64,000 nucleotides of DNA, taken from positions 1 to 64,000 of the forward strand of contig JAABRU010000012.1 of assembly GCA_011390755.1 (NCBI GenBank), given 5' to 3'. The notes under the pieces were generated by a model. It ran no database searches, was not told the DNA's origin, and saw only the letters and a program-made list of their open reading frames with translations. The translations under genes were made by a program, and so were the position numbers. Origin of the DNA: Desulfobacteraceae bacterium (GTDB lineage: Bacteria; Desulfobacterota; Desulfobacteria; Desulfobacterales; Desulfococcaceae). Below, piece after piece: positions 3,197 to 56,097 of the stretch (position 1 is the stretch's first letter; each line of letters starts with the position of its first letter).

Positions 3197-3287
3197 TTAC
3201 ACTCCTCCTCCGGGCCTTCGGTTATATGATTTTCCGGTTTCCCGGACTGCCGCCCGGTGTGAAGGCCGTGAACACCGGCAGCAGTTT

Positions 3288-3542: not shown

Positions 3543-3713
3543 GTAAAAATTTCCCGGATTTTATGCGGTATTCTTATATCCCCTTATTTCTGCCCGGTAT
3601 CGCAGATATTCTGTCCGGCTTACTGATATTTTATCCAATTTCCGGTATCCCTGCTGACTGTTTTCTGAAAATCATGCTCCATATTCAGGTGATATGTCAA
3701 TAGCGCAAGATTA

Positions 3714-3992
3714 TTATCCCCATTTCATTACCGTCAGCATCCATACAATGGCAATGCCGAAAGCAACCCAGATGCTAATATTTGTCAGTCCGATCCAGAG
3801 GAGATGGATATACGCACTGCCCAGCAGTCCGATGAAGAGACGGTCGCCTCTTGTGGTTTTGATGGGCAGAAAGCCCCGTCTTTCCACACAGGGAGACCTA
3901 ATCTGCCAGATGGTCATTCCTGTAAGAATCAGGACAATTACAATAAAAAATGTCGCCGTGGGAAGGGTCCATGCCATCCATTCAAGTTTCAT
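3714..3992 (-). CDS. DUF2160 small membrane protein of the glycerol transporter operon
   Basis: A 92-residue protein with three predicted membrane spans and little else. The size, the WMAWTLPTATFF start and the position between permease genes and the GlpV-type binding protein fit DUF2160 (PF09928). That family travels with glpSTPQV operons, and its role in transport is not established. A 147-bp inverted-repeat element separates it from glpQ. Confidence 0.8.
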   Translation of the reverse strand: MKLEWMAWTLPTATFFIVIVLILTGMTIWQIRSPCVERRGFLPIKTTRGDRLFIGLLGSAYIHLLWIGLTNISIWVAFGIAIVWMLTVMKWG

Positions 3993-4013
3993 ATCTGCTT
4001 TTCCTCATTCATA

Positions 4014-4160
4014 ATCAGTAGATCGAAAAGTTTTCCCCGGATACGGTTTTACGGCTGTCCCGGAGTGCAGAAATTGTATTTTTGCACGGCAGCATCTTCC
4101 GGTTGACCCATGCAAAAATACAATTTTTGCACTCCTCCGGAAACTTTTCGATCTACTGAT
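4014..4160. mobile_element. MITE-like element, 147 bp, with 7-bp target duplication
   Basis: The ends are inverted copies of ATCAGTAGATCGAAAAGTTT (20 bp, matching at both ends). A second, inner inverted repeat of about 25 bp with one mismatch (arms near 4061-4085 and 4109-4133) folds the middle. ATTCATA occurs directly before the left end (4007-4013) and directly after the right end (4161-4167), as expected for a target-site duplication. There is no coding capacity. It lies between the DUF2160 gene and glpQ. Confidence 0.75.
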
Positions 4161-4186
4161 ATTCATAATTTATAATTCACAATTCC

Positions 4187-4990
4187 CTAAACCCTGCCCA
4201 ACGCAAATCCTTTGGCCAGATGGTTTCTTACAAACCAGATCACCAGTGCACCGGGAACAATGGTCAGAATTCCGGCTGCGGCCAGCAGTCCCCAGTCCAG
4301 TCCGGATGCGCTCACGGTCCGGGTCATGGTGGCGGCAATGGGTTTGGCATTGGTGGTGGTCAGGGTACGGGCCAGCAGCAGTTCCACCCAGGAGAACATG
4401 AAACAGAAAAAGGCTGTCACCCCGATTCCGGCCCGGATCAGGGGCACCAGAATGGTCATGAAAAAACGGGGAAAACTGTATCCGTCAATAAATGCGGTTT
4501 CATCAATCTCCTTTGGGATGCCGGACATGAAACCTTCCAGAATCCATACGGCCAGGGGCACATTGAAAAGACAGTGGGCCAGGGCCACGGCAATGTGCGT
4601 ATCAATAAGATTGAAGGTGGAATATAACTGGAAAAAGGGCAGCAGGAAAACCGCGGGCGGAGCCATGCGGTTGGTGAGCAGCCAGAAAAACACATGCTTG
4701 TCCCCGATAAAACGGTAGCGGGAAAAGGCATAGGCCGCAGGCAAAGCGGTTATCAGGGAAATCAGGGTATTAATGCTGACATAGATAATGGAATTCACAT
4801 AACCGGAATACCAGGAGGGGTCGGTGAATATTTTAATATAATTTTCCAATGTCGGATGTTTGGGATAAAAGGAAAATGCCCCCAGAATATCCGCATTGGT
4901 ACGGAGGGACATGTTGAGCATCCAGTAGATGGGCAGCAGCAGCAGAATAAAATAAAAAATCAGACCGGCATATTTTAACCTGAATTTCAT
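4187..4990 (-). CDS. glpQ: Glycerol ABC transporter permease GlpQ-like
   Basis: A 267-residue inner-membrane permease of the MalG type with six hydrophobic segments. The EAA loop that contacts the ATPase reads IPKEIDETAFIDGYSFPRFF, near residues 160-180. Its start codon overlaps the glpP stop in an ATGA arrangement, so the two permeases are translationally coupled, as expected for a heterodimeric channel. The C-terminus LAKGFALGRV is typical of this subfamily. Confidence 0.85.
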   Translation of the reverse strand: MKFRLKYAGLIFYFILLLLPIYWMLNMSLRTNADILGAFSFYPKHPTLENYIKIFTDPSWYSGYVNSIIYVSINTLISLITALPAAYAFSRYRFIGDKHVFFWLLTNRMAPPAVFLLPFFQLYSTFNLIDTHIAVALAHCLFNVPLAVWILEGFMSGIPKEIDETAFIDGYSFPRFFMTILVPLIRAGIGVTAFFCFMFSWVELLLARTLTTTNAKPIAATMTRTVSASGLDWGLLAAAGILTIVPGALVIWFVRNHLAKGFALGRV

Positions 4991-5859
4991 TGTTTATCTC
5001 CTGTTCCGACATTCTGAAGTGCCTGATAAAAGAGCCAACTGAAAAGCAGAATGATAAGAAAATAGATGAGAGAAAACGCCGCGGCCGGGCCGAGATCAAA
5101 CTGGCCTACCGCCATTTTTACAAGATAGATGGACAGAAAGGTGGTGGTATTTCCAGGACCGCCGCCGGTGAGCACAAAGGGTTCCGCGTAAATCAGAAAA
5201 CTGTCCATAAAACGCAGCAGCACCGCAATGGTCAGCACCCCCCGCATTTTGGGCAGTTGGATATAGCGGAAAACCGACCAGGCCGAAGCCCCGTCAATTT
5301 TGGCGGCCTGGTAATAGGCTTCGGGAATGGCGCGGAGTCCCGCATAGGCCAGCAGTGCCACCAGGGGGGTCCAATGCCATACTTCCATAAACATGAGGGT
5401 AATCCATGCGTCCAGAGGACTGGAGGTATGGTCAAAGGCAATGCCGAGTTTGTTGATGGCCGCTCCGAAGAATCCGATATCCGGCCGGGTGAAGATAATC
5501 CAGATGGTTCCGATGACATTCCAGGGAATGAGCAGGGGCAGGGCCAGTGTCACCAGGGTCAGGGAGGCCGTCCATCCCTTCCCGGGCATCATCAGGGCAA
5601 TGGCGATACCCAGGGGGATTTCGATGAGCAGTACCAGGAATGAAAATAGAAACTGCCGCCAGAGAGCGTCGTGCAGTCTTTTGTCTGCCAGAACCTCACG
5701 GAACCATTCCGTACCCACAAAAACCCGCTGACCGGGCCCGAAAATATCCTGCACAGAATAATTCACCACAGTCATCAGCGGTATGATGGCACTGAAGGCC
5801 ACAATCAGAAAAACCGGCAGAATCAGAAACCAGGCTTTGTTGTCTTCCCATTTGTCCAT
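4987..5859 (-). CDS. glpP: Glycerol ABC transporter permease GlpP-like
   Basis: A 290-residue permease of the MalF/UgpA type with six hydrophobic segments. The EAA loop YYQAAKIDGASAWSVFRYIQ is intact. Its 3' end overlaps glpQ by four bases. Upstream, a BrnT-type toxin-antitoxin pair and an inverted-repeat element separate it from the ATPase gene glpT, to which it would normally be almost adjacent. Confidence 0.85.
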   Translation of the reverse strand: MDKWEDNKAWFLILPVFLIVAFSAIIPLMTVVNYSVQDIFGPGQRVFVGTEWFREVLADKRLHDALWRQFLFSFLVLLIEIPLGIAIALMMPGKGWTASLTLVTLALPLLIPWNVIGTIWIIFTRPDIGFFGAAINKLGIAFDHTSSPLDAWITLMFMEVWHWTPLVALLAYAGLRAIPEAYYQAAKIDGASAWSVFRYIQLPKMRGVLTIAVLLRFMDSFLIYAEPFVLTGGGPGNTTTFLSIYLVKMAVGQFDLGPAAAFSLIYFLIILLFSWLFYQALQNVGTGDKQ

Positions 5860-5909
5860 ATGAATAACTCCCTAAGATTAAGCCGAACAGATGAAACATG
5901 CAGTTGTTT

Positions 5910-6161
5910 TCAGTCCGCCTGAACGCCGGATCCTGCTGCACCCGCATATTTTTTACCGGCAATTTTTATTAATAATCTCAATGCATCATTGACAGATTCA
6001 TTATCATTAAATACTTCTGCCACATCAGGGGCCAGCAAAATCAGGTTTGTTCCTTCTTTGTATTTTGATACATATTTCCCTTTTACACCGCCTTTCAGTC
6101 GGGATAAATCATACTCCGGGCGAAGTTCGTCATCCATTTCCTTATAAGTATTGTTGCTCAT
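5910..6161 (-). CDS. Putative antitoxin partner of BrnT
   Basis: An 83-residue protein starting MSNNTYKEMDDELRPEYDLS, followed by KGGVKGKYVSKYKEGTNLIL and a short helical end ESVNDALRLLIKIAGKKY. This pattern is common for small antitoxins encoded directly after BrnT-like toxins. Its start lies inside the last codons of the toxin gene (20-base overlap), so the two are co-translated. The tail after residue 72 (AGAAGSGVQAD) is not typical and may be an extension. It should neutralise the toxin and bind the operon promoter. Confidence 0.72.
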   Translation of the reverse strand: MSNNTYKEMDDELRPEYDLSRLKGGVKGKYVSKYKEGTNLILLAPDVAEVFNDNESVNDALRLLIKIAGKKYAGAAGSGVQAD

Positions 6162-6426
6162 ACTGCTTCCTTTCTTTTCGTGTCAATTGTCTGGCACTGA
6201 TAATTCTTATTCTGTCATTTTTCTCTGCATGGGAAACAAAAAGCAATTTGCCAAGCGATGACAGGCCGATGATTATGTATCTTTCTTCATTATAAGAATG
6301 GTCCGGATCATTGTAAGTCATTGACAATGGATCGGAAAACACTGTTGCAGCTTCATCAAAAGATACTCCGTGTTTTTCCATATTCTTTTCCGCTTTATCC
6401 GGATTCCACTCAAATTTCAGTGGCAT
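6142..6426 (-). CDS. brnT: BrnT family ribonuclease toxin
   Basis: A 94-residue protein with the BrnT pattern: FEWNPDKAEKNMEKHGVSFDEA near the start, FSDPLSMTYNDPDHS in the middle, then ERYIIIGLSSLGKLLFVSH, and RIISARQLTRKERKQYEQ at the end. BrnT folds like RelE and cleaves RNA. The order toxin then antitoxin matches brnTA. The module sits inside the glp operon between glpP and glpT. Confidence 0.85.
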   Translation of the reverse strand: MPLKFEWNPDKAEKNMEKHGVSFDEAATVFSDPLSMTYNDPDHSYNEERYIIIGLSSLGKLLFVSHAEKNDRIRIISARQLTRKERKQYEQQYL

Positions 6427-6478
6427 ATGTCATAAATCCCCCGTTAAAATTAAGATAGGCGGTGTTATCTTATAAAAC

Positions 6479-6651
6479 TGTAATGTAACATAGCTTTTGA
6501 GAAAGGAGTGCGGAAATTATTTTCCGCCCACGCTCCGAAGGAGCGTGGGCGGAAGACCGCTCCGCCTACTTTCGCACTCCGGGTTTCTCTGAATAAAATA
6601 CTGAATATAATCAGCATGAAACAATTTTCTCAAAGGGTATGTTACATTACA
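6479..6651. mobile_element. MITE-like element, 173 bp, 14-bp perfect ends, 9-bp target duplication
   Basis: The terminal inverted repeats TGTAATGTAACATA are perfect, and similarity continues inward through TTTGAGAAA after a three-base mismatch. The nine bases TTATAAAAC flank the element on both sides (6470-6478 and 6652-6660). The centre holds a GC-rich hairpin around CCCACGCTCC / GGAGCGTGGG. There is no open reading frame. The element lies between glpT and brnT. Confidence 0.82.
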
Positions 6652-6672
6652 TTATAAAACGGAATCTTTCCT

Positions 6673-7761
6673 TTATGTTATCAGCCTTCCGTCCGCAAAA
6701 ATCCGTATTTTGTCCCTCGGAAAAAACAGACTGCATTCCCCCGCTGGTATGAACTCTCCTTCCGGAACCCTGGCGCGCAATGTTTTTTCTCCCAGCATAA
6801 CGGTAACAATCCGGCAGTTTCCCTGGTCTTCCACATCAGTGACTTTTGCAGCTATACCGCCGGATTCCCCGGCATCTTTCACCTGAAGATACATGGGGCG
6901 GATGCCCAGTTCCAGTTTTTTTCCTTCGGCTTTCCGTGCCAGTTCTGCGCATTTGTCGTCCAATAAAATGCCGGAACCGTTTACCACGGCCTGATTTCCC
7001 TCTGCCGTAATGGGCATGAGATTCATTCCCGGACTGCCGATAAAATAACCGACAAAGGTGTGGGCCGGTTCCTCAAACAGTTCCTGGGGCGTACCAATCT
7101 GCACCAGTTCCCCTTCATACATGACCATCACCTGATCGGCAAAGGTCATGGCCTCCACCTGGTCATGGGTGACATAAATCAGGGTCAGGTGAAAACGGTC
7201 ATGAATTTCCTTGAGTTTACGGCGAAGCTGCCATTTGAGATGGGGATCAATCACGGTCAGGGGTTCGTCAAACAGAATGGCCGCCACATCACTGCGGACC
7301 AGCCCCCGGCCCAGGGAAATTTTCTGCTTGGCATCCGCGGCCAGTCCGCTGGCTTTCTTTTTCAGAAAGGGGGTCAGTTCCAGCATATCCGCAATTTCCC
7401 GCACTCTTTTGTCCACTTCGGACGCAGCCACTTTGCGGTTGCGAAGGGGGAATGCCAGATTATCATACACCGTCATGGTATCATAGAGAACGGGGAACTG
7501 GAAAACCTGCGCTATATTGCGTTTTTCCGGGGGAAGTTCCGTTACATCCTTTCCGTCAAACAGAATCCTGCCCTGGCTGGGACGGAGCAGACCGGAGATG
7601 ATATTGAGCAGGGTGGTTTTTCCGCAGCCGGAAGGCCCCAGCAGGGCATAGGCCCCGCCGTCATCCCAGATATTATGGATGCGTTTGAGTGCGTAATCTT
7701 CATCCCCTTTGGGATTGGGGATATAACTGTGGGCGATTTCATTGAGTTCGATACGGGCCAT
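6673..7761 (-). CDS. glpT: Glycerol ABC transporter ATP-binding protein GlpT-like
   Basis: A 362-residue ABC ATPase of the MalK group with a C-terminal TOBE-like regulatory domain. Walker A is GPSGCGKTT (near residue 43), Walker B is AILFDEP, and the H-loop is VTHDQ. The signature LSGGQ is replaced by LAADAKQ and the D-loop by LTVIDP. I recall this degenerate form as normal for the GlpT member of the GlpS/GlpT pair, in which GlpS supplies the canonical signature. No GlpS gene is present upstream. AAGGA precedes the ATG by about nine bases. Confidence 0.83.
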   Translation of the reverse strand: MARIELNEIAHSYIPNPKGDEDYALKRIHNIWDDGGAYALLGPSGCGKTTLLNIISGLLRPSQGRILFDGKDVTELPPEKRNIAQVFQFPVLYDTMTVYDNLAFPLRNRKVAASEVDKRVREIADMLELTPFLKKKASGLAADAKQKISLGRGLVRSDVAAILFDEPLTVIDPHLKWQLRRKLKEIHDRFHLTLIYVTHDQVEAMTFADQVMVMYEGELVQIGTPQELFEEPAHTFVGYFIGSPGMNLMPITAEGNQAVVNGSGILLDDKCAELARKAEGKKLELGIRPMYLQVKDAGESGGIAAKVTDVEDQGNCRIVTVMLGEKTLRARVPEGEFIPAGECSLFFPRDKIRIFADGRLIT

Positions 7762-10139: not shown

Positions 10140-10370
10140 TTATTTCAACAGTTTCTGGAATTTTTCTGTCGTAAGATGTGCCTGTTTAAGGATATGTGAG
10201 AGAGTGGAACGCTTAACCGGCACATGAGCAGGCACAGTAATTTTCAGAACTTCCATGTCAGTATGTTTTTGTAAACGGATATGACTGCCTTTCTGACGCA
10301 CAACCACCCATCCGTCTCTTTGCAATGCTTTAATAATTTTATCATACCCCGGACTTGGTATTCTGCTCAT
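10140..10370 (-). CDS. hicA: HicA family mRNA interferase toxin
   Basis: A 76-residue protein with the double-stranded-RNA-binding-like fold of HicA. The N-terminal helix SPGYDKIIKALQRDGW precedes VVRQKGSHIRL, where the catalytic histidine of the GSH motif sits. VPAHVPVKRSTLSHILKQA follows in the second half. It overlaps the upstream hicB by four bases. The order antitoxin then toxin is one of the two known arrangements. Confidence 0.88.
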   Translation of the reverse strand: MSRIPSPGYDKIIKALQRDGWVVVRQKGSHIRLQKHTDMEVLKITVPAHVPVKRSTLSHILKQAHLTTEKFQKLLK

Positions 10371-10570
10371 ACGGCAATTTCCAATATCTCATTATTGTCT
10401 GCATAAAATATGTCATCTTCCACAGGCTCCAGATAAAGTTCGATAGCCTCTCTGATATTGGACAAAGCTTCTTCTTTGGTGTCGCCTTCACTGATACATC
10501 CGGGCAGACTTGGCACATATACGGTATAGCCGCCTTCTTCACTCGGTTCAAAGACTATCTTCAGTTTCAT
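10367..10570 (-). CDS. hicB: HicB family antitoxin
   Basis: A 67-residue HicB antitoxin: IVFEPSEEGGYTVYVPSLPG, then CISEGDTKEEALSNIREAI, the standard HicB core. The open frame extends further upstream, but a TGGAGGT Shine-Dalgarno ends five bases before the ATG at 10570, and that ATG begins the conserved domain. The extension reads through dispersed repeat D and is not coding. No DNA-binding domain is visible after the core, so this is a short HicB. Confidence 0.88.
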   Translation of the reverse strand: MKLKIVFEPSEEGGYTVYVPSLPGCISEGDTKEEALSNIREAIELYLEPVEDDIFYADNNEILEIAV

Positions 10571-10580
10571 AATACCTCCA

Positions 10581-10665
10581 TTTTTTTGCGTCCGGTTCAT
10601 TTTTGGGCTGGTATGTTCTTTTGACTGCGGTAGGCAAAGAAAAGATTTTGCCCGCCCTGGCTGCT
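10581..10665. repeat. Dispersed repeat D, copy 3
   Basis: Third copy of the 8256-8347 sequence, same orientation, lying directly upstream of hicB. It may contribute the hicBA leader or promoter region. Confidence 0.7.
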
Positions 10666-10776
10666 GCCTTAAGGTCGGAGGAGTGTCAAACTTACAGCCT
10701 GACATGCTGAAATTATTTAGAAAAAGACGTGCTAAACTGTAAGTTCAGCACTCCATATTTTTCTTAAGGCAGCAGC
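10660..10776. mobile_element. MITE-like element with 14-bp perfect ends
   Basis: GCTGCTGCCTTAAG at the left is exactly inverted at the right (10763-10776). Inner arms containing GGAGTGTCAAACTTACAG and CTGTAAGTTCAGCACTCC also pair. The layout resembles the 150-bp elements between the large protease genes, suggesting a common origin. Bases 10777-10860 hold a short C/G-rich hairpin (CTCTCCCC / GGGGAGAG) just beyond the 3' end of purA, possibly a terminator. Confidence 0.6.
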
Positions 10777-10860: not shown

Positions 10861-12201
<1,341 letters not shown>

Positions 12202-12225
12202 TCAAAAGATTCACTTAAAATTCCA

Positions 12226-12252
12226 GGTCGGCTTAGCGAAGCCTAACCCGGC
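12226..12252. repeat. REP-like hairpin with GGCTTAGCGAAGCC centre
   Basis: A short hairpin related to those at 1391-1438 and 56562-56587 (arms of the GGGTTA / TAACCC type around an AGCGAAGC core). It lies upstream of purA. Confidence 0.5.
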
Positions 12253-12288
12253 ATCAGGATGCTTTTCCCGAAATAAATACACAATTTT

Positions 12289-12446
12289 AAATGAAACAGT
12301 GCATTATAGTATTCCAATTTAGGTTTTCCCGGGCACGAAATTTGCTTTAACTGTCAACCGCAACCGTCCGGCGGACAGATTATAAGATACTGTGCCCGCT
12401 TTTGGAAAAACCAAAATTGGATCAGTATATTGCAAAAGATTCATTT
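12289..12446. mobile_element. Degenerate MITE-like inverted repeat, about 158 bp
   Basis: The two ends (AAATGAA, then a T/A-rich arm ending in GGTTTTTCC or GGTTTTCC) are inverted copies of about 45 bases at roughly 75 percent identity. The centre contains a GGGCAC / GTGCCC pair. No frame is open. With the hairpin at 12226 it accounts for the gap between purA and the FemAB-like gene; I see no gene in that gap. Confidence 0.45.
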
Positions 12447-12535
12447 AGCATAAGGAAAGAAATTTCACAAGAATAAGGTATTCTTCCGAACTGAATTCCC
12501 GTATCCCCCGGCTTTCATCTTCAGCTAATCGGGTA

Positions 12536-13522
12536 TCAGCGCCGGTAAAAACGTATAATCTCCTTTAATTCGGAACCGAAAGAAAGTTTGAATTTCCCGT
12601 ATCCTTCAATTTTATTATCATTTCCCTTTTGCGAATCTTCACTGAAATTCATATTGCGGACCCCCCACATATTATAAGTCCGGTATCCCAGAGCCTGATA
12701 ATGGGACATCAGCTCCCACTGTATGAGATTATTGGGTTTCAATGACAGACTTTCGGGGTCGGAGGAACCGTAGACAAAATTTATATAGGGAAAAAATTTC
12801 CAGATAAAAGCATAGGCCAGGGGCCGGTCTCCGGAAAAGGCCACCCATAAATCCGCCAGATCTTTTTCTGTGAGCAGTAAAAACCGCCGCCGGATTTCTG
12901 CATAACTCATATACGCGGTGTTCAGATGCTCCCGAAGGCTTTTATAAAAGAAATAAAAGCCTTCCAGATATGCTTCTTCATTGGCAATACGGGCTGTCAC
13001 CTCTTTTTTCCGGGCATAGCGCACCACATTGCGGCATTTCTGGTGAAGACCTGCCCATAAGGCATCTTTGCCCGCCGACAGATCCAGCAGCACTGTATGA
13101 TCGTACTGTTTTGTACACTGCCATGCTGCTGCATTTTCAAAAATACTGCTTTGCATGGAAAAGCAGGGGTAGAAAAAAAAAGGAGCATCCGCCAGATGTT
13201 TTTCATAAAAATATGCAGCCAGCTTATTTTTAATCGCATCGGCATCTTTCTTTATTTCATAAGTGTCAGTCATCAGGGGCCAGCCCCCGCTTTTGCTGCC
13301 GACTTCGATCATGCCTTTATGATAGCCGCTCCTGTTCACTGTGGCGGCAATGAGGGCCACCGGCAGCTCCCCGTCGCAGCACATGGCACCGGCAAATCCG
13401 TGCCCGTCCGCCTTTTGTATGTCAAAATAGCGGGAGGAATGAAAAATATTTGCATTTCCGGAATGTTCCAGAATATATTCCCAGTCTTTTCTTTTTATTT
13501 CCGTTGTAAAATGTATTCCCAT
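12536..13522 (-). CDS. FemAB-like / GNAT-fold acyl- or aminoacyltransferase
   Basis: A 328-residue soluble protein with two GNAT-like halves as in FemABX and the BioF2-like family (PF13480). The N-terminal half contains FHSSRYFDIQKADGHGF. The second half has KCRNVVRYARKKEVTARI and the conserved tail block RTYNMWGVRNMNF, followed by GYGKFKLSFGSELKEIIRFY. The family moves amino acids from aminoacyl-tRNA to peptides, or acyl groups to amines. The gene is divergent from the racemase-like/ATP-grasp/Nudix run, with a 313-base spacer, and probably belongs to the same pathway. Confidence 0.75.
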   Translation of the reverse strand: MGIHFTTEIKRKDWEYILEHSGNANIFHSSRYFDIQKADGHGFAGAMCCDGELPVALIAATVNRSGYHKGMIEVGSKSGGWPLMTDTYEIKKDADAIKNKLAAYFYEKHLADAPFFFYPCFSMQSSIFENAAAWQCTKQYDHTVLLDLSAGKDALWAGLHQKCRNVVRYARKKEVTARIANEEAYLEGFYFFYKSLREHLNTAYMSYAEIRRRFLLLTEKDLADLWVAFSGDRPLAYAFIWKFFPYINFVYGSSDPESLSLKPNNLIQWELMSHYQALGYRTYNMWGVRNMNFSEDSQKGNDNKIEGYGKFKLSFGSELKEIIRFYRR

Positions 13523-13562
13523 ACTGTTCTGATTTCCGTCTTTTGTTTATGTAATTTTCAGA

Positions 13563-13735
13563 AAATATTTCTGAGAAGGCGGTACCCTGCAAAGATGGCG
13601 GGTCAAATCCCCTGATTTCCTTCTGCAGGGGCCTGCTGCATACACGCCGGAGCCTCGCCGGGCGTATGCAGTACACCCCTGCAGTCAGATACTGAATGCA
13701 TCAGCCTTTTTGACCCGCTATCCAAAATATTTTTC
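13563..13735. repeat. Nested long hairpin in divergent intergenic region
   Basis: Outer arms near 13583-13605 and 13708-13735 pair (GGCGGGTCAAA type, then AAAATATT). An inner hairpin at 13622-13683 has arms TGCAGGGG / CCCCTGCA and CTGCATAC / GTATGCAG. It sits between the FemAB-like gene and the racemase-like gene and could be a miniature element or a leader structure. The rest of this gap shows nothing clear. Confidence 0.5.
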
Positions 13736-13835
13736 CGGAACTCTGTATTTGCTTGATATTCCGCATACAGTCTGCTAAATTAACAGGTTTCGTTAAGACA
13801 ACTGTGAAAGAAGGGGTAACACTTTTCAGAAAAAA

Positions 13836-14789
13836 ATGGAAGAGAAGTCAGAAAAAAATATTGTAATAACGGATTCCGGTTTCGGGGGGCTGAGTGTGCT
13901 GGCCGCTGTGTATGAAAATCTGCGGCATGAAAAATTCCCCCTGCATCTTTCATTTGCGGAAGCCCTGCCCAAAAACTGCCCCGGTTATCCCTGGCAGGGT
14001 TACAGCCTTATGCCGGACAGAAAAACCAAAGTAAAGGTATTTCATAATTTCCTGACAGGTCTGGAAAAACATTTCCGCCCCGACCGCATTGCCTTAGTCT
14101 GCAATACTCTTTCGGCCATTGTGCAGGAAACAGATTATTATGCCCGAAACAGGGAAAAAATCATCAATATTATTGATACGGGTCTGGAAGAATGCAGCAG
14201 ACTGGAAATCGAAGACAGGGCCTGCATCATTATTCTGGGAACACAGACCACTGTTTCCAGTGATATTCACCGCCGCGGTCTGGCAGAAAAGGGAATCTTT
14301 CCCCATGACCGGATCCTTCCCATAGCCTTCGCTCCTGAAGACCACTATCCCCTGCGGATTGAAACAGAACCGGAGAGCGCGGGAACATGGGACATCAGCC
14401 AGAAGACGCTGGAAAAAGCCTTTCCGTTTATCCCGGATTCCGGTACTCCTGTATATGTGTATCTGGGCTGTACCCATTTCGGGTTTGTGCAGCATCACTA
14501 TATCCGCATTTTGCAGAAAGCCGGATTCGGCAATGTGAAAATCATCAATCCCAATCAGGCCATGACAGAAAAACTGACAACAGAGATAAGGAAAATATAT
14601 GCCGGACAAAACAGAGAAAGTTCCCTGGTCAGCAATGGGATCCGGACAGAAATATATTCACAGTTTCTGCTTTCTCCCGAACAGATTTCTTCCGGTGCGG
14701 CCCTGATCGCAGGGATTTCTCCGACTGTCTCCCGTAAACTGAAAGAATATATATTCAAAAACGATATTACAGAAAAGTGGGAAGAATAA
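13836..14789 (+). CDS. Glutamate-racemase-like protein (Asp/Glu racemase superfamily)
   Basis: A 317-residue protein with the MurI layout: DSGFGGLSVLAAV at residues 13-25, CNTLSA with the first catalytic cysteine at residue 89, and GCTHFGF with the second at residue 212. Both cysteines of the racemase pair are therefore present. The loop between them differs from housekeeping MurI (LSFAEALPKNCPGYPW near residues 38-53). Together with the neighbouring ATP-grasp and FemAB-like genes this suggests a specialised racemase rather than the peptidoglycan one. No good Shine-Dalgarno is near the ATG; GAAGGGG lies about 18 bases upstream. Confidence 0.78.
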   Translation: MEEKSEKNIVITDSGFGGLSVLAAVYENLRHEKFPLHLSFAEALPKNCPGYPWQGYSLMPDRKTKVKVFHNFLTGLEKHFRPDRIALVCNTLSAIVQETDYYARNREKIINIIDTGLEECSRLEIEDRACIIILGTQTTVSSDIHRRGLAEKGIFPHDRILPIAFAPEDHYPLRIETEPESAGTWDISQKTLEKAFPFIPDSGTPVYVYLGCTHFGFVQHHYIRILQKAGFGNVKIINPNQAMTEKLTTEIRKIYAGQNRESSLVSNGIRTEIYSQFLLSPEQISSGAALIAGISPTVSRKLKEYIFKNDITEKWEE

Positions 14790-14793
14790 TATA

Positions 14794-15771
14794 ATGAAAA
14801 GAAACGTGCTGATACTGTTTGCAGATCCGAGTTTCGAGATTTCCGAAAGGGAATGGGAACCGGATTATTTCAAAAAAATGCTGGGCAAAGAAGAGGTCAG
14901 GGTGCATGTCGCACTTTTCCGGGATGTGTATTTTTTTCTGGATTCCTCCGGAGACCGCCGTTTTTATGTAAACGGAAAGGAGCTGCCCATAGATGATTCC
15001 CTGGCTTTTGTATGGTTCCGCACCCGCGGAGAACGTTCGGACAAAATGTATGATATGATGCCCTTTATGAACGGTCTGGCCTATCTGCTGAAAAAGAAAG
15101 GCATTGCATTTTTTGATGAAGAACTGGGCGATATGGTTTCCATTAACAAATTTTCCGATAAAATCATTTTATCCGCCGAAGATTTTCAGCTGCCCAAAAC
15201 CTTTCTGATGACCAGCTCTGAAACAGCAGATCGGGAAATGATTGTGCAGGAACTCGGTTTTCCCATGGTCTTAAAAGAAAAAGCATACGGCAGCCGGGGG
15301 GACGGTGTTTCTTTGCTGAAAAATCAGGCGGCTCTGGATGATTATTTTTCCACCGAAAAAAATTTTTTCATCCTGCAGGAATTTATCCCCAATGAAGTGG
15401 AATACCGTTATGTGATTTCCGATTACCGGTTGCGGCGGGTGGAACAGCGCTGGCATAATGAAAGTGAGGAATTCCGCAACAACAGCTGCCTGGGGGCCAC
15501 AGAGGAAACCATTGATCTCAGTACCATAGAAGATTTTATCCGGCAGGAATCCCAAAGGGCCGCACGGGTATTCAAACGGGATTTATGCGGGCTGGATATT
15601 ATCCGGCATGAGGGGAAATACTATTTTATCGAAATCAACCATACCCCCGGATTCGATAATCCGGATACGGCGGATCCCGCTTATTACAAAGTCAATGTCT
15701 TCAGTGTGAATGTGGTGCTGGAGGATATTATCGGGCATATCCGGGAACATGCGGAAAGGACAGGGCAGTAG
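14794..15771 (+). CDS. ATP-grasp ligase (RimK/glutathione-synthetase-like)
   Basis: A 325-residue protein with an ATP-grasp fold. The N-terminal pre-grasp domain contains VWFRTRGERSDKMYD. The lysine and glycine-rich loop is LKEKAYGSRGDGVSLL, the central acidic block is LQEFIPNEVEYRYVISDYRL, and the magnesium-binding end is GLDIIRHEGKYYFIEINHTP. Such enzymes activate a carboxylate as acyl phosphate and join it to an amine. It starts four bases after the racemase-like gene and ends immediately before the Nudix gene, so the three are one operon. The substrate is unknown; a D-amino acid from the racemase is an attractive guess. Confidence 0.82.
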   Translation: MKRNVLILFADPSFEISEREWEPDYFKKMLGKEEVRVHVALFRDVYFFLDSSGDRRFYVNGKELPIDDSLAFVWFRTRGERSDKMYDMMPFMNGLAYLLKKKGIAFFDEELGDMVSINKFSDKIILSAEDFQLPKTFLMTSSETADREMIVQELGFPMVLKEKAYGSRGDGVSLLKNQAALDDYFSTEKNFFILQEFIPNEVEYRYVISDYRLRRVEQRWHNESEEFRNNSCLGATEETIDLSTIEDFIRQESQRAARVFKRDLCGLDIIRHEGKYYFIEINHTPGFDNPDTADPAYYKVNVFSVNVVLEDIIGHIREHAERTGQ

Positions 15772-16653
15772 ATGAAATATCATCCCCTGCTGCCGGATAC
15801 ACTGCTGGGGGATCCGGAATTTTTCCGGAAAAAACTGCCGGAAATTCTGTTCCGCTCTGTCCGGCCGGAACAAAGCTGGCTGCCGCCGGATTCGCCCTCC
15901 CTCAATGCCTCTGCCGTGCTCTTTCTGCTGGGAATTCTGCCGGAAACAGAGGGGGATATCTGCCTGATTCTGAACAAAAGATCCCAGAAAGTCCGGCAGC
16001 CCGGGGATTTATGCTGTCCGGGCGGGGGAATTACGCCGTTTCTGGACAGATTTCTGGCTGCTCTGCTCCGACTGCCGGGACGGCATCTGCGCTCCTGGCC
16101 GTGCTGGTCTTTGCTGCAAAGGAAATGTCCCCCCGCTGCCCGCTGCCTGGCGCATTTTTTGGCCACCGGACTGCGGGAGGGATGGGAGGAAATGCATCTG
16201 CATCCCGCGGGGGTAAGTCTGCTGGGACCGCTTCTTCCGGAACATCTTGTCCTCTTCCGCCGGGCCATTTATCCCCTGGCGGTATGGGTTGACAGGCAGG
16301 AAATATTCAGGCCCAACCGGGAAGTGGAAAAAATACTCCGGCTTCCTTTGAGAGATCTGCTACAGCCCGTGCACTATGCCACCTTCCGCCTGGAATACCC
16401 CCCGCACATCAGCAATAAACTTCGGCGGGAGCAGCAGGATTTTCTCTGCTTTTTATTTGAGGACAGGGGCGAAACAGAAATGCTGTGGGGGGCCACCTTC
16501 CGTGTTGTTTTGAATTTCCTTCGCATTGTTTTTGATTTTCATCCGCCCGGTACACAGAAACTGCCCCTGATTCACGGAAGCATGAAGAAATCCTATCTTC
16601 GCGGGAGACCTAAAAAACAGGAAACCCTGTCACTCCGGTTTCCACCCGAATGA
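15772..16653 (+). CDS. Nudix hydrolase with long insert
   Basis: A 293-residue protein of the CoA-pyrophosphatase-like Nudix group. PGDLCCPGGG near residues 77-86 matches the PGD-FPGG motif that precedes the Nudix box, and LREGWEEM near residues 134-141 is the REUXEE core that binds metal. About 45 residues, rich in leucine, arginine and tryptophan, separate these halves instead of the usual short loop. The ATG directly follows the stop of the ATP-grasp gene. It may hydrolyse a CoA or nucleotide by-product of the pathway. The C-terminal 30 residues are basic. Confidence 0.78.
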   Translation: MKYHPLLPDTLLGDPEFFRKKLPEILFRSVRPEQSWLPPDSPSLNASAVLFLLGILPETEGDICLILNKRSQKVRQPGDLCCPGGGITPFLDRFLAALLRLPGRHLRSWPCWSLLQRKCPPAARCLAHFLATGLREGWEEMHLHPAGVSLLGPLLPEHLVLFRRAIYPLAVWVDRQEIFRPNREVEKILRLPLRDLLQPVHYATFRLEYPPHISNKLRREQQDFLCFLFEDRGETEMLWGATFRVVLNFLRIVFDFHPPGTQKLPLIHGSMKKSYLRGRPKKQETLSLRFPPE

Positions 16654-16712
16654 CGGAAAACTTGAAATTCGGATTTTTTGCAGATTCCGTCTGATGCTCT
16701 GTCAGTCTGCAA

Positions 16713-19700
16713 TCAATGCAGTCCGGCTGTTTTTCTGAGAATAAAAATCACCTCTTCCATACCGAGTTTTTCATCATTATTAATATCCGAATCCGGGAGG
16801 GTATCGGAAGCCAGTTCCGGGGGATTGGCGGAGGTCAGCACCTGCAGAAGAATCACTGCGTCTTTCAGGTCTGTATTTCTGTCTCCGTTTACATCGCATT
16901 TTGTGCAGGGCGTTCCGGCTGTCTGTTCTACGGTAAATTTCCAGGGTAAGGAATAGACCGTAGAATAAGAATCACAGTCAATAGATGCATAGATATTCAC
17001 GATATATGTTCCCTGTTCTGTGAATCCCTCATATTCGATTTGATATTTTCCATTATTATCCGGTTCCTGCAGAATAATTTTTGTCAGATCGGTAATGGGT
17101 TCTTCCGGATCACCGAATTCATAACAAGGAGGAAGGATTTCAGCCCATACTTCTTTTATCTCTTTTTCTGAGGTAATATCAGCGGCCCATATCAGGGCGG
17201 ATATATCACCGTTGAGAAGAATATTCTCATTTCCTTCATTGATAAACGGTGATGAACAACCGTGTCCGCCGTATCCGAATCCGATATAGATTTTGCTCAG
17301 CAGTTTGGCTTCATTTTCGTTTGCCACGCCGTCTCCGTTTCCGTCAGCCTGGCAGGTCTGGTAATCCGCCATCATATCCCGTCCAAGTCCGAAGGCCTGG
17401 TTCAGCGGTGCTCCGCCGAATACAGCCGACCAGAACTGGTAGGAAAAGGAAAGCCGTCCCATGCTCAGAAACCAGGCGTTCTGATCAGCGGATGCGCTGG
17501 TAAGGACAACCCTCTGCTTTTCCGGAGGTGCAGCAAGTCTGGAAATAAAACTGCCGGACTGGCAGGCATCATATACCACAATCACCCGTCCAGACATTGT
17601 TGTTTTTGTCTGCAGGTAATCCAGGTATCCTTTGAGATCTTCTTCACTGCCTTGTTCATCTGCATAGAGAATTTCAGAACCGCTGAGACGGAATTTATTA
17701 TCTCCCCCGTGATCTGCCAGAAAAAGCACCAGATCATCGGCATCTGCTGCCCAGTTTTTGATGGCATCAGCAAGTCCTGTTTTGGTGGGGATTCCGTCAG
17801 CCCCGTATTTGGAAGGCGGATCGGAACAGTCCGCGACAAGCGCGGCTGTATCATGGGTAAAATACTTTATTTTATCCCTTGCATACCTATGACACAAAAG
17901 AGTGCGGAAGGCAAAATCCCCGCACACTTTTGTCTGATCCCATATGTGATTACCGACAAAAGGCCCGCCACCGGCCACAACAATGGCCTTTGAATTCCGG
18001 GTGACAGTAATCTCAAAATTTGCTTTTACAGTCATGTCCTGCTCCATTTTCAGGGTGCAGGTATTTTCGCTTCCGGAACATGCCGTGCTTCCCTCCCATC
18101 CGGTAAAAGCATAGCCCGGACTGGCTGCTGCGGTCAGGGTAACCTCTCTTCCGTATTCATAAAGTGCGGCGCAGGACTCTTCTCCGCAATCAATCCCGCC
18201 TATATCACTCGTCACAGTACCCATGGCCTTAAATATATTCTCCACATCCAGCCTGCGCGGGGGTTCTTTTTCAAAATTGACAAAGACCTGGGTATTCTGT
18301 GTCATCTGCACATTGCATTGACTTGTCGAACCCTCACATCCGCCGCCGGACCAGTCTTTGAGCCGGTATCCGTACTGGGGTGCTGCGGAAAGGGTTACAG
18401 TCGTACCTGCCGGATAGGTATCAGCACAGTCAATCCCGCAACTGATTCCTGCAGGCTGGCTGCTCACAGCTCCGGTACTCATGCCGGTGGTGGTTACGGT
18501 AAGCGTGTAACTGGCTGTTTTTTCAAATGTGGCTGTGATGTTTTTATTTTCCGTCATTTTGACTGTGCAGTCTTCCTGTCCGGAGCATCCGCCGCCGGAC
18601 CAGCCCTGAAAAACACATCCGCTTTCTGCTGAGGCCGACAGGAGAACAGAGGAATTCCAATCATATATCTCAGTGCAGTCACTTCCGCAGGCAATCCCGC
18701 CGGTTCCCGCGGTTACGGTTCCGGTGCAGGTTCCGGTATTGATGATGTTCAGCGTATATTGCACCGGATGCTCGATATTGATGATTTCCACACTGCCCGG
18801 ATCTGAATGGACAATATAGAGTTTTGTGCCGTCCGGGGAAGCATCCGGATGAACAGGCCCGTTTCCGCCGGAAATGATGTTCTGAGAGGGCAGCAGTTGG
18901 GTATTTGTCAAAGTATCCAGCATTGTCAGTGTGCTGTCCCCGTAATTTACCGCGTAGAGAATCCCATTTACGATTTTCATTCCCTGGGGATTTTTTGCAC
19001 TGTCCAGAGAAACAGAACTTGTCATCGTATCTGAGACTGTATCAATGACCGAAATTTTGTCACCACCGGAAGAATTGTGGGAGATGTAAACATAGGAACC
19101 ATCGGCACGGCTCACCGCATCATAGGGTTTGTCTCCCACGGAAAGCGTTTTGACTAGGCTGTGATAATCCGGCGATGTGCTGTTCAGATCAATTACATAG
19201 ACTTTTCCCGTCCATGTTCCTGCCACATAGAGTTTGTTCTTGGCAATGGACATGCCCAGAGGATCAGCATCGGCTCCGAGGGAAATGACGGTTTCCGTTG
19301 TTTTTGCAGCAGTCTGAATTACGGTAATTTCATCACTGCCTGCGGAACAGACATAGATTTTCTGCCCGTCCGGGGAAACAATAACATTCTGGGGAGATGA
19401 ACTCACACTGACAGCCGCGGAATCTATGCTGTCACTGTCCGTATGGATGACAAACAGGGAATTCCGCGCACGGTCAAGCACATACAATTCCTGATAAGCC
19501 GGGTTATAAGCCAAAGCCGTGGCATCTTTGGTGCCGGTTCCGGGCAGGTTGATCTGACTGGTGATATAGGGAGCAGCATCCGACAGATTCATCACCAGCA
19601 CGCAGCCGTTCTGGCGACTGCTGACATATCCTTTCATGATTGTACCGGGAACCACGGCAATGTCAAAGGGCATGTTCAGCAGATAAGCGCCGGTGATAAC

Positions 19701-19787
19701 CGTGCCTTCATGCACCGGATTGGCATAGGCCGGGAGGGTGCAGAAGACAATGAGCAACAATACAATGGAAGTTCTGATTTTTTTCAT
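16713..19787 (-). CDS. Secreted C13-type peptidase with YVTN propeller and dockerin-like tail
   Basis: A 1024-residue exported protein. After a signal peptide (1-22) come seven YVTN/YncE-type blades (about 25-345), then three divergent InlB B-repeat domains (about 346-595, each with WSGGGC or WEGS and ANFE/ATFE). The clan CD peptidase follows (about 600-835): AIVVAGGGP start, catalytic ADHGG, catalytic DACQSGSF. A short Ig-like region leads to a dockerin-like tail with loops DVNGDRNTDLKDA and DINNDEKLGMEE and the end ILRKTAGLH. It faces the Nudix gene and is the first-listed member of the array. The partner or substrate is unknown. Confidence 0.85.
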   Translation of the reverse strand: MKKIRTSIVLLLIVFCTLPAYANPVHEGTVITGAYLLNMPFDIAVVPGTIMKGYVSSRQNGCVLVMNLSDAAPYITSQINLPGTGTKDATALAYNPAYQELYVLDRARNSLFVIHTDSDSIDSAAVSVSSSPQNVIVSPDGQKIYVCSAGSDEITVIQTAAKTTETVISLGADADPLGMSIAKNKLYVAGTWTGKVYVIDLNSTSPDYHSLVKTLSVGDKPYDAVSRADGSYVYISHNSSGGDKISVIDTVSDTMTSSVSLDSAKNPQGMKIVNGILYAVNYGDSTLTMLDTLTNTQLLPSQNIISGGNGPVHPDASPDGTKLYIVHSDPGSVEIINIEHPVQYTLNIINTGTCTGTVTAGTGGIACGSDCTEIYDWNSSVLLSASAESGCVFQGWSGGGCSGQEDCTVKMTENKNITATFEKTASYTLTVTTTGMSTGAVSSQPAGISCGIDCADTYPAGTTVTLSAAPQYGYRLKDWSGGGCEGSTSQCNVQMTQNTQVFVNFEKEPPRRLDVENIFKAMGTVTSDIGGIDCGEESCAALYEYGREVTLTAAASPGYAFTGWEGSTACSGSENTCTLKMEQDMTVKANFEITVTRNSKAIVVAGGGPFVGNHIWDQTKVCGDFAFRTLLCHRYARDKIKYFTHDTAALVADCSDPPSKYGADGIPTKTGLADAIKNWAADADDLVLFLADHGGDNKFRLSGSEILYADEQGSEEDLKGYLDYLQTKTTMSGRVIVVYDACQSGSFISRLAAPPEKQRVVLTSASADQNAWFLSMGRLSFSYQFWSAVFGGAPLNQAFGLGRDMMADYQTCQADGNGDGVANENEAKLLSKIYIGFGYGGHGCSSPFINEGNENILLNGDISALIWAADITSEKEIKEVWAEILPPCYEFGDPEEPITDLTKIILQEPDNNGKYQIEYEGFTEQGTYIVNIYASIDCDSYSTVYSLPWKFTVEQTAGTPCTKCDVNGDRNTDLKDAVILLQVLTSANPPELASDTLPDSDINNDEKLGMEEVIFILRKTAGLH

Positions 19788-19810
19788 TTTTTTTCCTTTC
19801 TCGTTACGGG

Positions 19811-19961
19811 GCTCTGCCCCAATGCCGTTAAATTAAGGATTTTCCGGAGTGCCAAAATGAAGTGAAACGGAATTTTGGCCGGATTTTCCCAGTCATTTCA
19901 GTGTCCCAAACTTTCAGTTCAGGACTCCCCTGCCCTTAAACTAATGCCATTGAGGCAGAGC
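19811..19961. mobile_element. CAATGNCATT-type MITE-like element, copy 1
   Basis: About 150 bp with ends GGCTCTGCCCCAATGCCGTT and, inverted, GGCTCTGCCTCAATGGCATT. Inside, GGAGTGCCAAAATG, ACGGAATTTTGGC and CCCAAACTTTCAGTTC recur in every copy and form two inner hairpins. Other copies: 24570-24645 (half), 33171-33321, 42894-43018, 48730-48883. It fills the gap between the first two large protease genes. Confidence 0.7.
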
Positions 19962-19978
19962 CTGGGAACGAGTCAATT

Positions 19979-22900
19979 TTACAGTCCTGCTGTTTTCCGT
20001 AAAACAAACACAGCCTCGGCAATCCCGATTTTTCCGTCTGTATTCACATCCGCCGCCGTGCTGATATTCTGCCCGCTCATGTCCTCCCCCGCGCATATTT
20101 TCAGGGAGAGGACGGCATCGGCAAGGGTGACATCCCCGTCCCCGTTCACGTCACCTGGCGACACGTTGACATCTGTCCTTACAGGTGCGGACTGCGCCAC
20201 GTTGCCGAACTGGTCTTTGATGTAAAAGCTGAGAATGTACTGACCTTTTTCCGTGAATTTGTCATAAGTACCGGTATAGGTCAGGTCATCGTCATTATCC
20301 GAAAGGTTGAAGAATTCCAGTTCGATGTTCTGGTAGTTCCCGCCGGTGTCCGGTATGTATCCGGGCGGCTGCACTGTACCCCATACTCTTTTCATGCGGG
20401 CGTTGGTGGCGAGGGTGAAGGATACGGATGTGCCGGACAGCGGCCCTTTTTCCAGTGAGAGAATTTCCGGCCAGGGTGCGCCCGTGGCAAAATCACCGCC
20501 CAGGCGGAGGGTGGCCGTGAGCATTCCGTCATTATCATCATATTTCCCGTCCCCGTTGTCGTCCAGCTGCGGGGTCTGGTAGAAGGTGAGGTTGGATTCC
20601 TGCAGGCGGCGGACGGATTTGGAGAATGCCTGGTGGATTGTGCTGTTTTCAAAGAGATAACGGAGAAAATGGTGGGTGAAACTGTCGGAACCGTAGTTGT
20701 CGTAATTGACAATATGGTCGGAGGCCGAGGTGATGACAATTCTGCCCGGCTTTTTCAGGCGGGACATGAAGGCCCCGGAATAGCAGGATTCGTTGATGAC
20801 AATGACCTGTCCGCCGGTTTCGTTTTCGTATGTGTTCAGCATGGCATTGAGATCATCCGCGTAAAGGATTTCTCCGGGGGAAATCATAAAAGAGGGACCT
20901 TTTATGCCGTCGTCCGCATAGCCGTGATCTATGATGTAAAGATACAGCGGGGTTCCGGGCGTGTATGCTTTTACAGCCCGGTCAGTGATGGCGTATTCCA
21001 GATCGGCCACGGTAAGGTTGCGGTCCTCATCGGGCATGGGACGGTCCACAATATGGTCGTCATAACCGTCCCCGTTGAAATCATTCCATTTTTCCGGGGA
21101 CATGAAAAAGATGTCGGTGTTTTTGAAGCCTCTGGAACTGAAAATGCGGTAAACAGATGTGGCGAGTTCCTTTGTGGTTTTCCACAGGGGGTTGGTCTGG
21201 GCGGCTCCGCCTCCGGCCAGGAGGATTAGGTGGCCGGGGGATTGGGTGGTGGTGGGAAAAGATATCCTATTCAATCCGTATCCTCCTGCCCAGATTGAAT
21301 TGTCCGAAGTTTGGACAAGAGAATAAATGACGTTTGAAGATAAATTACTATTGTTGATATTGTAAATAGTCCATTGATCGGTTTTGTAGTCAAATTGAAC
21401 CAAACCATCCGCTGTTCCGACCCATAATGCTCCATCTGTTGTTTGGAGAAGTGAATAAACGATATTGGAAGGCAATCCGCTGTTATCGGGACGATAAACA
21501 CGCCATTGATTTTTATTGAAGTCAAACTGCGCCAGTCCCCCCGCTGTTCCTGCCCATAAGGCTCCATCAGATGTTTGGAGAAGTGCTTGAACCCAATTGT
21601 CAGGCAATTCGCTGTTACCAGTGTTGTAAATAGTCCATTGATTACTGTCATAATCAAACCTTGCCAGACCTCCGTTATATGTTCCTATCCATAAAGTTCC
21701 ATCGGATGTTTGGAAAAGTGCTTCAACTGAAATGGAAGGCAATTCGCTGTTGTCGGTATTGTAAACAGTCCATTGGTTTGCATCATAATCAAACCGTGCC
21801 AAACCGCCGAAAAAACCAGGAGGTGCAGCCCAAATTCCCCCTGTTCCTACCCATACGGCTCCGTCTGATGCCTGGATAAGAGCAGTAACTTCATCGAAAG
21901 GCAACCCGCTGTTTCTGGTATCGTAAACAGTCCATTGGTCAGTGTCACGGTCAAACCGTACCAGCCCACCCATTTGTCCCGCCCATACGGCTCCATCGGA
22001 TGTTTGGAGAAGTGCTTCAAACAAATAGTTGGGATCGTAAGCAGTCCATTGGTTTGCATCATAATCAAATCGTCCTATTCCATGATTTGTTCCAGCCCAT
22101 AAGGCTCCGTCGCTTGTTTGGAGAAATGAATAAACCTGATTATCAGGCAATCCGTTGCTACTGATATTGTAAACCATCCATTGTTTGTTTCCATAGTCAA
22201 ACCGTATAATATATCCGAATCCTCCTGTTAGTATTGTTCCATCATATGGTTGGGCAATCGCATGACCACTGATAGTCCCATAAACCGTTGTCCATTGTTT
22301 TTTGTCATAATCAAATTGAGTAAGATAAACCCTTCCTGATGCCCATACAGTTCCATCGGATGTCTGGAGGAGTGAATAAACATCATTACTTGGGATTTCA
22401 CTATTATCTGTGTTGTAAACAGTCCATTGATTATTGCCGTAATCAAACCGTACCAGACCGTAGAATAATGTTCCTGCCCAGATGGCTCCATCGGTTGTTT
22501 GGAGAAGTGAGTAAACGTAGTTAGTGATATTGTAAAGCCTCCATTGATTTGCTTCATAATCAAACCGTACCAGACCACTTTGTGTTCCCGCCCATACTGC
22601 ACCATCTGATGCTTGGAGAAGTGCGGTAACTTCACTGTGAGGCAATCCGCTGTTGCCGGTATTGTAAACAGTCCATTGGTTTGTCTCATAATCAAACCGT
22701 ACCAGACCGCCCTTTGTTCCTGCCCAGATAGCTCCGTCTGATGTATGGAGAAGTGTGAAAACAAAATCAGAAGGCAATTCACTGTTGCCAGTATTGTAAA
22801 CAGTCCACTGGTCATTGTCATAATCAAACCTTACCAAACCGCCAGATGCTCCAATCCATATTTTCCCGTCAGATAACTGAATAAGAGATTGTACTGCTGT

Positions 22901-23407
22901 TCCCGGTATTTCATTAATATAAATTTTTTTCTCATTTGTAATCGTGTTCAGTCTGATCAGCCCTCCTCCGGTGGCGACCCATAAAATATCCTTGTCTCTG
23001 TTATCCGGCATAATTGACATCACATCATCAGTATTTGTATAGACGCTGAAAACTGCATTTTTGGGATCGAATATACTTGATGAAACCGTTATTGTCTTTG
23101 ACACAAACCCGAAATCATCCAGCGCATCAAAAACAGTCAGCCTTACGGTAAACTGCCCCGACTCCCTGTAATAATGACTGTCTTTCACCAAAGAGGATGT
23201 TCCCCCGTCCCCGAAGCCCCACACATAGGAATAGGGAGCCGTGCCGCCGCTCACGACGGCCTCAAATTCCACCTCAAGGGGCAGAACTGCCTGATCCGGA
23301 ACAGTTTTAATCTGAACGCTTATTTCCCCCTGCGCTATGGCCGGGCAGAGGGTGAGGATGGTGACTGCCGTGAACAGTGTTCTGAAAAGTAATGATGTTT
23401 TTTGCAT
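19979..23407 (-). CDS. Secreted C13-type peptidase with PKD and 14-blade two-component-regulator propeller
   Basis: A 1142-residue exported protein: signal peptide (1-26), a PKD domain (about 30-110, YVWGFGDGG), then fourteen units of the two-component-regulator propeller type (about 120-760, SDGAVWAGTxxGLVRFDY), enough for two seven-bladed propellers. The peptidase (about 765-1000) has LYIIDHGYADDG and INESCYSGAF, the variant HG and ESC motifs of one sub-branch of this array. An Ig-like piece (VWGTVQPPGYIPD) and a two-loop dockerin-like tail (DVNGDGDVTLADA, DVNTDGKIGIAEA, ending LRKTAGL) close it. It is the close paralogue of the gene at 52546-55995. Confidence 0.85.
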   Translation of the reverse strand: MQKTSLLFRTLFTAVTILTLCPAIAQGEISVQIKTVPDQAVLPLEVEFEAVVSGGTAPYSYVWGFGDGGTSSLVKDSHYYRESGQFTVRLTVFDALDDFGFVSKTITVSSSIFDPKNAVFSVYTNTDDVMSIMPDNRDKDILWVATGGGLIRLNTITNEKKIYINEIPGTAVQSLIQLSDGKIWIGASGGLVRFDYDNDQWTVYNTGNSELPSDFVFTLLHTSDGAIWAGTKGGLVRFDYETNQWTVYNTGNSGLPHSEVTALLQASDGAVWAGTQSGLVRFDYEANQWRLYNITNYVYSLLQTTDGAIWAGTLFYGLVRFDYGNNQWTVYNTDNSEIPSNDVYSLLQTSDGTVWASGRVYLTQFDYDKKQWTTVYGTISGHAIAQPYDGTILTGGFGYIIRFDYGNKQWMVYNISSNGLPDNQVYSFLQTSDGALWAGTNHGIGRFDYDANQWTAYDPNYLFEALLQTSDGAVWAGQMGGLVRFDRDTDQWTVYDTRNSGLPFDEVTALIQASDGAVWVGTGGIWAAPPGFFGGLARFDYDANQWTVYNTDNSELPSISVEALFQTSDGTLWIGTYNGGLARFDYDSNQWTIYNTGNSELPDNWVQALLQTSDGALWAGTAGGLAQFDFNKNQWRVYRPDNSGLPSNIVYSLLQTTDGALWVGTADGLVQFDYKTDQWTIYNINNSNLSSNVIYSLVQTSDNSIWAGGYGLNRISFPTTTQSPGHLILLAGGGAAQTNPLWKTTKELATSVYRIFSSRGFKNTDIFFMSPEKWNDFNGDGYDDHIVDRPMPDEDRNLTVADLEYAITDRAVKAYTPGTPLYLYIIDHGYADDGIKGPSFMISPGEILYADDLNAMLNTYENETGGQVIVINESCYSGAFMSRLKKPGRIVITSASDHIVNYDNYGSDSFTHHFLRYLFENSTIHQAFSKSVRRLQESNLTFYQTPQLDDNGDGKYDDNDGMLTATLRLGGDFATGAPWPEILSLEKGPLSGTSVSFTLATNARMKRVWGTVQPPGYIPDTGGNYQNIELEFFNLSDNDDDLTYTGTYDKFTEKGQYILSFYIKDQFGNVAQSAPVRTDVNVSPGDVNGDGDVTLADAVLSLKICAGEDMSGQNISTAADVNTDGKIGIAEAVFVLRKTAGL

Positions 23408-55995: not shown

Positions 55996-56029
55996 GACAA
56001 TTCTCCTTTTTTGCTGGTTGTTTTGTTTT

Positions 56030-56097
56030 TTGTCTGAACCCGGATTCACGGGATTTACGGATTAACCGGGATTCACATTATCTGCGGTTCGGACAGC
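56030..56097. repeat. GTCTGAAC-type spacer, truncated
   Basis: GTCTGAACCCGGATTCACGG directly followed by ATTATCTGCGGTTCGGAC, so the middle arms found in the other spacers are missing here. Confidence 0.6.

Follow-up and report, generated by a model that had tools for sequence, protein, structure and literature searches.

A divergent racemase-like gene outside the MurI family and an adjoining RimK-like ATP-grasp gene in a Desulfobacteraceae bacterium

Gene content of the locus

The window analysed here is a 64-kb stretch of DNA, contig C358 of a 6.9-Mb assembly that consists of 379 contigs and is 91% complete. Four genes lie in its segment considered below (Table 1). Their open frames and spacing agree with the preliminary description: the gaps are 313 bases between the divergent FemAB-like gene and the racemase-like gene, 4 bases between the racemase-like and ATP-grasp genes, and 0 bases between the ATP-grasp and Nudix-like genes. 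The GC content is 0.452 for the FemAB-like gene, 0.466 for the racemase-like gene and 0.459 for the ATP-grasp gene, compared with 0.554 for the Nudix-like gene. Promoter-like sites in positions 12100–16800 occur at the chance level (7 found, 6.0 expected); for terminator-like sites these numbers are 13 and 6.2. The small frames of the 313-base spacer were listed with a precursor peptide of the RiPP type in mind, and no outstanding candidate was found among them. The frame list of the window, judged by eye, fits the earlier remark that there are no peptidoglycan genes nearby.

Table 1. Features of the locus (positions in the window).
Feature	Positions	Strand	Comment
FemAB-like gene	12536–13522	−	open frame; divergent
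Spacer between FemAB-like and racemase-like genes	13523–13835		313 bases; no promoter signal above chance
Racemase-like gene	13836–14789	+	open frame; 317 aa
Asp13-Ser14 codons, DSGFGG motif	13872–13877	+	invariant in 47/47 aligned family rows
Cys89 codon, first catalytic cysteine (CNTLS)	14100–14102	+	invariant in 47/47 rows
Cys212 codon, second catalytic cysteine (GCTHF)	14469–14471	+	invariant in 47/47 rows
ATP-grasp gene, RimK-like	14794–15771	+	open frame; 325 aa
Nudix-like gene (CoA-pyrophosphatase-like)	15772–16653	+	open frame

Elsewhere in the window, frames at 1457–7761 resemble, by eye, a binding-protein-dependent transporter, and a HicB-like antitoxin is encoded at 10367–10705 on the minus strand (PF15919, 8e-12). 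Very large secreted-looking proteins are found at 16713–23407 and 52546–56049. Peptidase C13 domains occur in the first two of them, of which one also has InlB-like repeats and the other PKD, propeller and dockerin parts; a third large secreted-looking protein begins like the second.

The FemAB-like protein matches PF13480 at 2e-9 and PF02388 at 1.6e-6 (27.7 bits, above the cut-off of 24), the best stretch of the latter match covering residues 241–323 only. Its relatives were absent at 1e-10 from the 57 other genomes searched. The gene is tied to the rest of the locus by its divergent position only.

The Nudix-like protein matched no Pfam family. It shares the REGWEEM Nudix helix with CoA pyrophosphatase (NF007980; 4.6e-6), whereas its score of 26.3 bits is below the cut-off of 134 and it carries an insert. 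This insert, noted earlier as a peculiarity, is real; however, it is kept in all 19 relatives aligned and is therefore a feature of the order-wide Nudix family. At 1e-10 the gene is present in 27 of 58 genomes, its own included (that is, in 26 other genomes of the order), among them all six genomes of the same family. The flanks of 19 of the 26 relatives were checked, and none of these loci has any of the other three genes near the Nudix gene (at one, L165, the Nudix frame itself had been dropped by the frame filter). The Nudix-like gene is thus a separate native gene: its conservation in the order, its separate placing in the relatives and its higher GC content make it best read as a resident with newcomers upstream, and as a bystander to the racemase and ATP-grasp pair.

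The preliminary description had proposed that the four genes form one small pathway in which a peptide with a D-residue is made or attached. Since the Nudix-like gene is native and stands apart in the relatives, and the FemAB-like gene has no conserved link, we reject the pathway as a set of four genes. What remains as its core is the tightly spaced pair of the racemase-like and RimK-like ATP-grasp genes.

The racemase-like and ATP-grasp proteins

With Pfam, the racemase-like protein gives no match of meaningful score. It matches TIGR00067 at 1e-9 with 38.2 bits, far below the MurI cut-off of 146.65. In the libraries scanned, no model scored above its cut-off for this protein or for the relatives tested, of which L011, L045, L101, L076 and L089 were compared with NCBIfam only. 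The structural model is confident (pLDDT 93.9) and has the two-domain fold of the aspartate/glutamate racemase superfamily. Its best structural match is the glutamate racemase 3out_B (Z 26.9, rmsd 2.5 over 259 residues); Z is 20.8–26.9 for glutamate racemases versus 18.3 for the best aspartate racemase. In the structure alignment, which contains the window protein and 46 of 63 candidate rows, residues D13, S14, C89, T136, T139, C212 and H214 are kept in all 47 rows; hence both cysteines named in the preliminary description are in place. The window protein departs from the other 46 rows at four positions that are near-invariant in them (N42 to E, N57 to S, C165 to F and L171 to Y). Because of these departures the substrate may differ, or be lost, so that a shift of the substrate relative to the clade is possible.

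The tree contained 105 rows and was built by a quick method, with rooting on MurI as a choice. The relatives of the racemase-like protein were listed as the best 80 of 116 matches, ten weak matches (42.5–48.2 bits) of a separate search were set aside, and seven near-duplicate or repeated rows (L144, L099, L104, L113, L085, L052, L088) were omitted from the tree. The 34 MurI rows are separated from the 71 others (the window protein and 70 non-MurI rows) by a branch with support 100. Within the non-MurI clade the window protein forms a long end branch whose placing is unsure. Among the matches listed, this clade includes Calditrichota, Ignavibacteriota, Bacteroidota, Acidobacteriota, Lentisphaerota, SAR324, Desulfobacterota and others. 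Its hallmark is GYN where MurI has PYG, together with TLS and CTH[FY]G. The window protein shares with MurI (TIGR00067; PDB 3out, 2gzm, 1zuw) the fold, the DSG-GG, CNT-S and CTH motifs and the two cysteines; it differs in having QGYS for PYG, TLS for TAS, HFG for HYP and a longer C-terminus. Moreover, the place usual for murI in this order lies elsewhere in the genome and holds another gene. By the tree and the low TIGR00067 score, the protein is distinct from MurI and represents a divergent branch of a clade of its own, which is widespread and has the glutamate racemase fold.

The ATP-grasp protein has a RimK-like ligase core. It matches PF08443 (RimK) at 2e-17 with 63.8 bits, above the gathering cut-off of 21, and scores 79.3 bits with TIGR00768, below the cut-off of 143.4. 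The ATP-grasp core, residues 98–290, is common to it and to RimK-type alpha-L-glutamate ligases (TIGR00768; PDB 7qyr, 5zct, 4iwx), whereas the N-terminal part is not common to the relatives: these match within residues 100–311 only, RimK-type ones aligning through the core to the EINHTPGF segment, and nothing was found to match the first 100 residues or so. A single-sequence model of the protein had a pLDDT of 34. Full-length relatives were found neither in 390 genomes of the phylum nor in 389 genomes of the order (the samples overlap). The former contained one partial match besides the protein itself, and the latter 29, all within residues 115–300. Among 50 genomes holding racemase relatives, a sample that overlaps the others, five had weak partial matches and none a full-length one. 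We also considered a plasmid or phage origin and rejected it, as tblastn gave partial RimK-type matches only (9 plasmid and 22 phage records), none of them covering 80% of the protein; a search of viral contigs with this protein gave no match. The ATP-grasp protein is thus an orphan, and the racemase and ligase pair is a singleton so far.

Native murI and the supply of D-glutamate

According to the preliminary description, the proposed pathway would be refuted if the racemase-like gene were the only murI of the genome. This is half the case: one other gene of the MurI family was found, but it lacks the second catalytic cysteine. This other TIGR00067 match (L003, positions 1498–2286 of contig C318; also L012) lies in a dnaX-recR-YkgJ operon and scores 120.6 bits, below the cut-off. 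It has TCHSFSA and LIPASGSYA at the catalytic places, so that the first cysteine is kept and the second is gone. The same second cysteine is absent from 7 of 34 distinct MurI rows (33 found and the reference), namely L003, L042, L043, L044, L141, L142 and L143, which come from 7 of 40 genomes of the order (its own and six others); in L042 and L143 both catalytic cysteines are lost. The cysteine-less homologues are full-length, and several still reside in the dnaX/recR/YkgJ operon.

Two genomes of the same family with a cysteine-less murI, G001 and G005, hold a second, intact MurI that is 31–32% identical to the one usual for the order. Between these two genomes dN/dS equals 0.23 for the cysteine-less genes and 0.24 for the intact ones (dS is 1.5, near saturation), so the altered MurI is seemingly still under constraint. 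The cysteine-less MurI is thus a retained and probably non-racemizing protein. In four other genomes (G009, G026, G028 and G029) a cysteine-less murI is the only one among matches above 60 bits, and 6 of the 40 order genomes have no MurI match at all; thus the loss of murI seems to be tolerated.

Given that the native murI lacks the second cysteine, the window gene encodes the only two-cysteine protein of the MurI type, that is, the only such TIGR00067 match, found in the 91%-complete assembly, and this genome may have no other MurI-type racemase that works. The window gene product could then be a replacement glutamate racemase for peptidoglycan, acquired because the native murI lost its activity, the ATP-grasp protein being an unrelated protein- or metabolite-modifying ligase. 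The state of the native gene in its operon and the second, intact MurI in G001 and G005, which have suffered the same kind of loss, are consistent with such a replacement. However, the genome contains a probable D-amino-acid transaminase (L178; TIGR01121, 273.7 bits, just below the cut-off of 277.45). Hence another source of D-glutamate is present and the window gene need not be the sole route. The apparent tolerance of murI loss in the order and the distance of the window protein from MurI by score also argue against a replacement, and we consider it somewhat unlikely, although it is the chief alternative to the reading preferred below.

Gene neighbourhoods and interpretation of the pair

Neighbours of the racemase relatives were counted at 77 loci with a racemase row, using frames of at least 90 aa; many of the contigs are short, so the counts are lower bounds. 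A CapA-like (PGA_cap) gene lies within 4 kb on the same strand at no fewer than 20 loci, and a Ddl-like ATP-grasp gene at no fewer than 15, both being present at 15. The counts are at least eight for class IV aminotransferase, at least seven each for N-formylglutamate amidohydrolase (a hydrolase) and alanine racemase, at least five for gamma-glutamyltranspeptidase, and at least two each for PgsB-like and PgsC-like genes, where PgsB-like genes were identified by the Mur-ligase domain and the position next to PgsC. The CapA-linked racemases of Desulfobacterota form one clade on the tree, and the window protein lies outside it. Conserved clusters in which PGA_cap stands with a racemase gene of the non-MurI kind and an ATP-grasp gene of the Ddl-like kind were observed at L055 (8718–12752), L061, L091, L093, L094, L096, L098, L107, L126, L127 and L128. 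Some clusters of this kind are followed by a gene for N-formylglutamate amidohydrolase and preceded by genes for class IV aminotransferase and alanine racemase. The CapA-racemase-Ddl cluster of Desulfobacterota and Lentisphaerota is likely a pathway for a D-amino-acid peptide or polymer.

These clusters share with the window a racemase of the same superclade, and there too the ATP-grasp gene mostly follows it; they differ in having PGA_cap and a Ddl-like ligase, whereas the window has a RimK-like one. The pairing of a racemase of this clade with a member of the ATP-grasp superfamily therefore recurs, with another ligase. The window ATP-grasp gene itself was never the best match for a gene beside the racemase relatives (the frame filter lost some genes of GC-rich contigs). 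A role in poly-gamma-glutamate synthesis was rejected for this genome, in whose 91%-complete assembly PGA_cap (PF09587) had no match. In the titles and opening lines of abstracts from the open-access literature searched, we found no description of the racemase/RimK-like pair or of the CapA-racemase-Ddl cluster, nor did a passage search of PMC10406935 give any mention of CapA.

Other relatives have neighbours of a different kind. The row nearest to the window racemase by path on the tree, L045 from Calditrichota, starts 16 bases after an M20-type amidohydrolase. At L101 (4131–10804) the racemase belongs to one run with two genes resembling dipeptide-transporter ATPases and two amidohydrolases, one of them of the M20 type; the set looks as if it served to utilize D-amino acids that are acylated or bound in peptides. 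The racemase clade is thus tied to D-amino-acid chemistry in both directions, and for L045 and L101, given their amidohydrolases, catabolism is the better fit. The window racemase might likewise act on D-glutamate, or some other D-amino acid, that is released when the wall or a polymer is turned over, and bring it back to the L pool, the neighbours of the gene mattering little; the gamma-glutamyltranspeptidase genes near clade members agree with such a role. Nevertheless, the frame list, judged by eye, has no such catabolic genes beside the window gene, and the ligase gene immediately behind it points to synthesis, which makes a catabolic role distinctly improbable. That two unrelated acquired genes with separate roles came into one transcription unit by chance accords with the occurrence of the pair in one genome and with the third gene of the run being a bystander, but is scarcely probable, given the common strand, the 4-base gap and the similar GC content, which would fit joint arrival.

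In the best reading of the pair, to which we assign a probability of about 45%, a racemase of the D-glutamate type supplies a RimK-like ligase with its product. The first gene would encode a cofactor-independent two-cysteine racemase whose most likely substrate is glutamate or one of its close analogues. The ligase, most likely taking the product, would attach it, by way of an acyl phosphate, to a carboxylate on a small molecule, a peptide or a protein. The pair, presumably acquired by transfer, stands in front of the native Nudix-like gene and may share its transcript; the Nudix-like and FemAB-like proteins would be dispensable for the chemistry. This reading is favored by the common strand and close spacing, the kept catalytic residues, the structural matches to glutamate racemases, the D-amino-acid contexts of the racemase family with their recurrent ATP-grasp partner, and the alignment of the ligase core with RimK-type relatives. 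We infer the use of the racemase product by the ligase because the genes adjoin, in one genome; the exact pair was seen once, so that no support for a functional link can come from conservation. The idea of making and attaching a D-amino acid stays plausible for these two genes, as many racemase relatives lie in D-amino-acid clusters, but not for all four.

The enzyme kinds are already known; the racemase/RimK-like pair was not met elsewhere in the genomes searched. To our knowledge, it is not established that RimK-like ligases add D-residues post-synthetically. A further step, unlikely in our estimate, would be a new D-amino-acid attachment system, in which a dedicated non-MurI racemase supplies D-glutamate or an analogue and the RimK-like ligase adds it to the end of a protein or peptide. 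If this is true, a ligase of the RimK type would work with a D-residue, and the two small soluble proteins of the pair would amount to another way of accomplishing the task of the CapA-racemase-Ddl clusters. Further, the clade outside MurI extends over several phyla and has ties to D-amino-acid clusters. The murI of the order, for its part, has repeatedly lost catalytic cysteines while keeping its place in the operon, which prompts one to ask what role its protein has.
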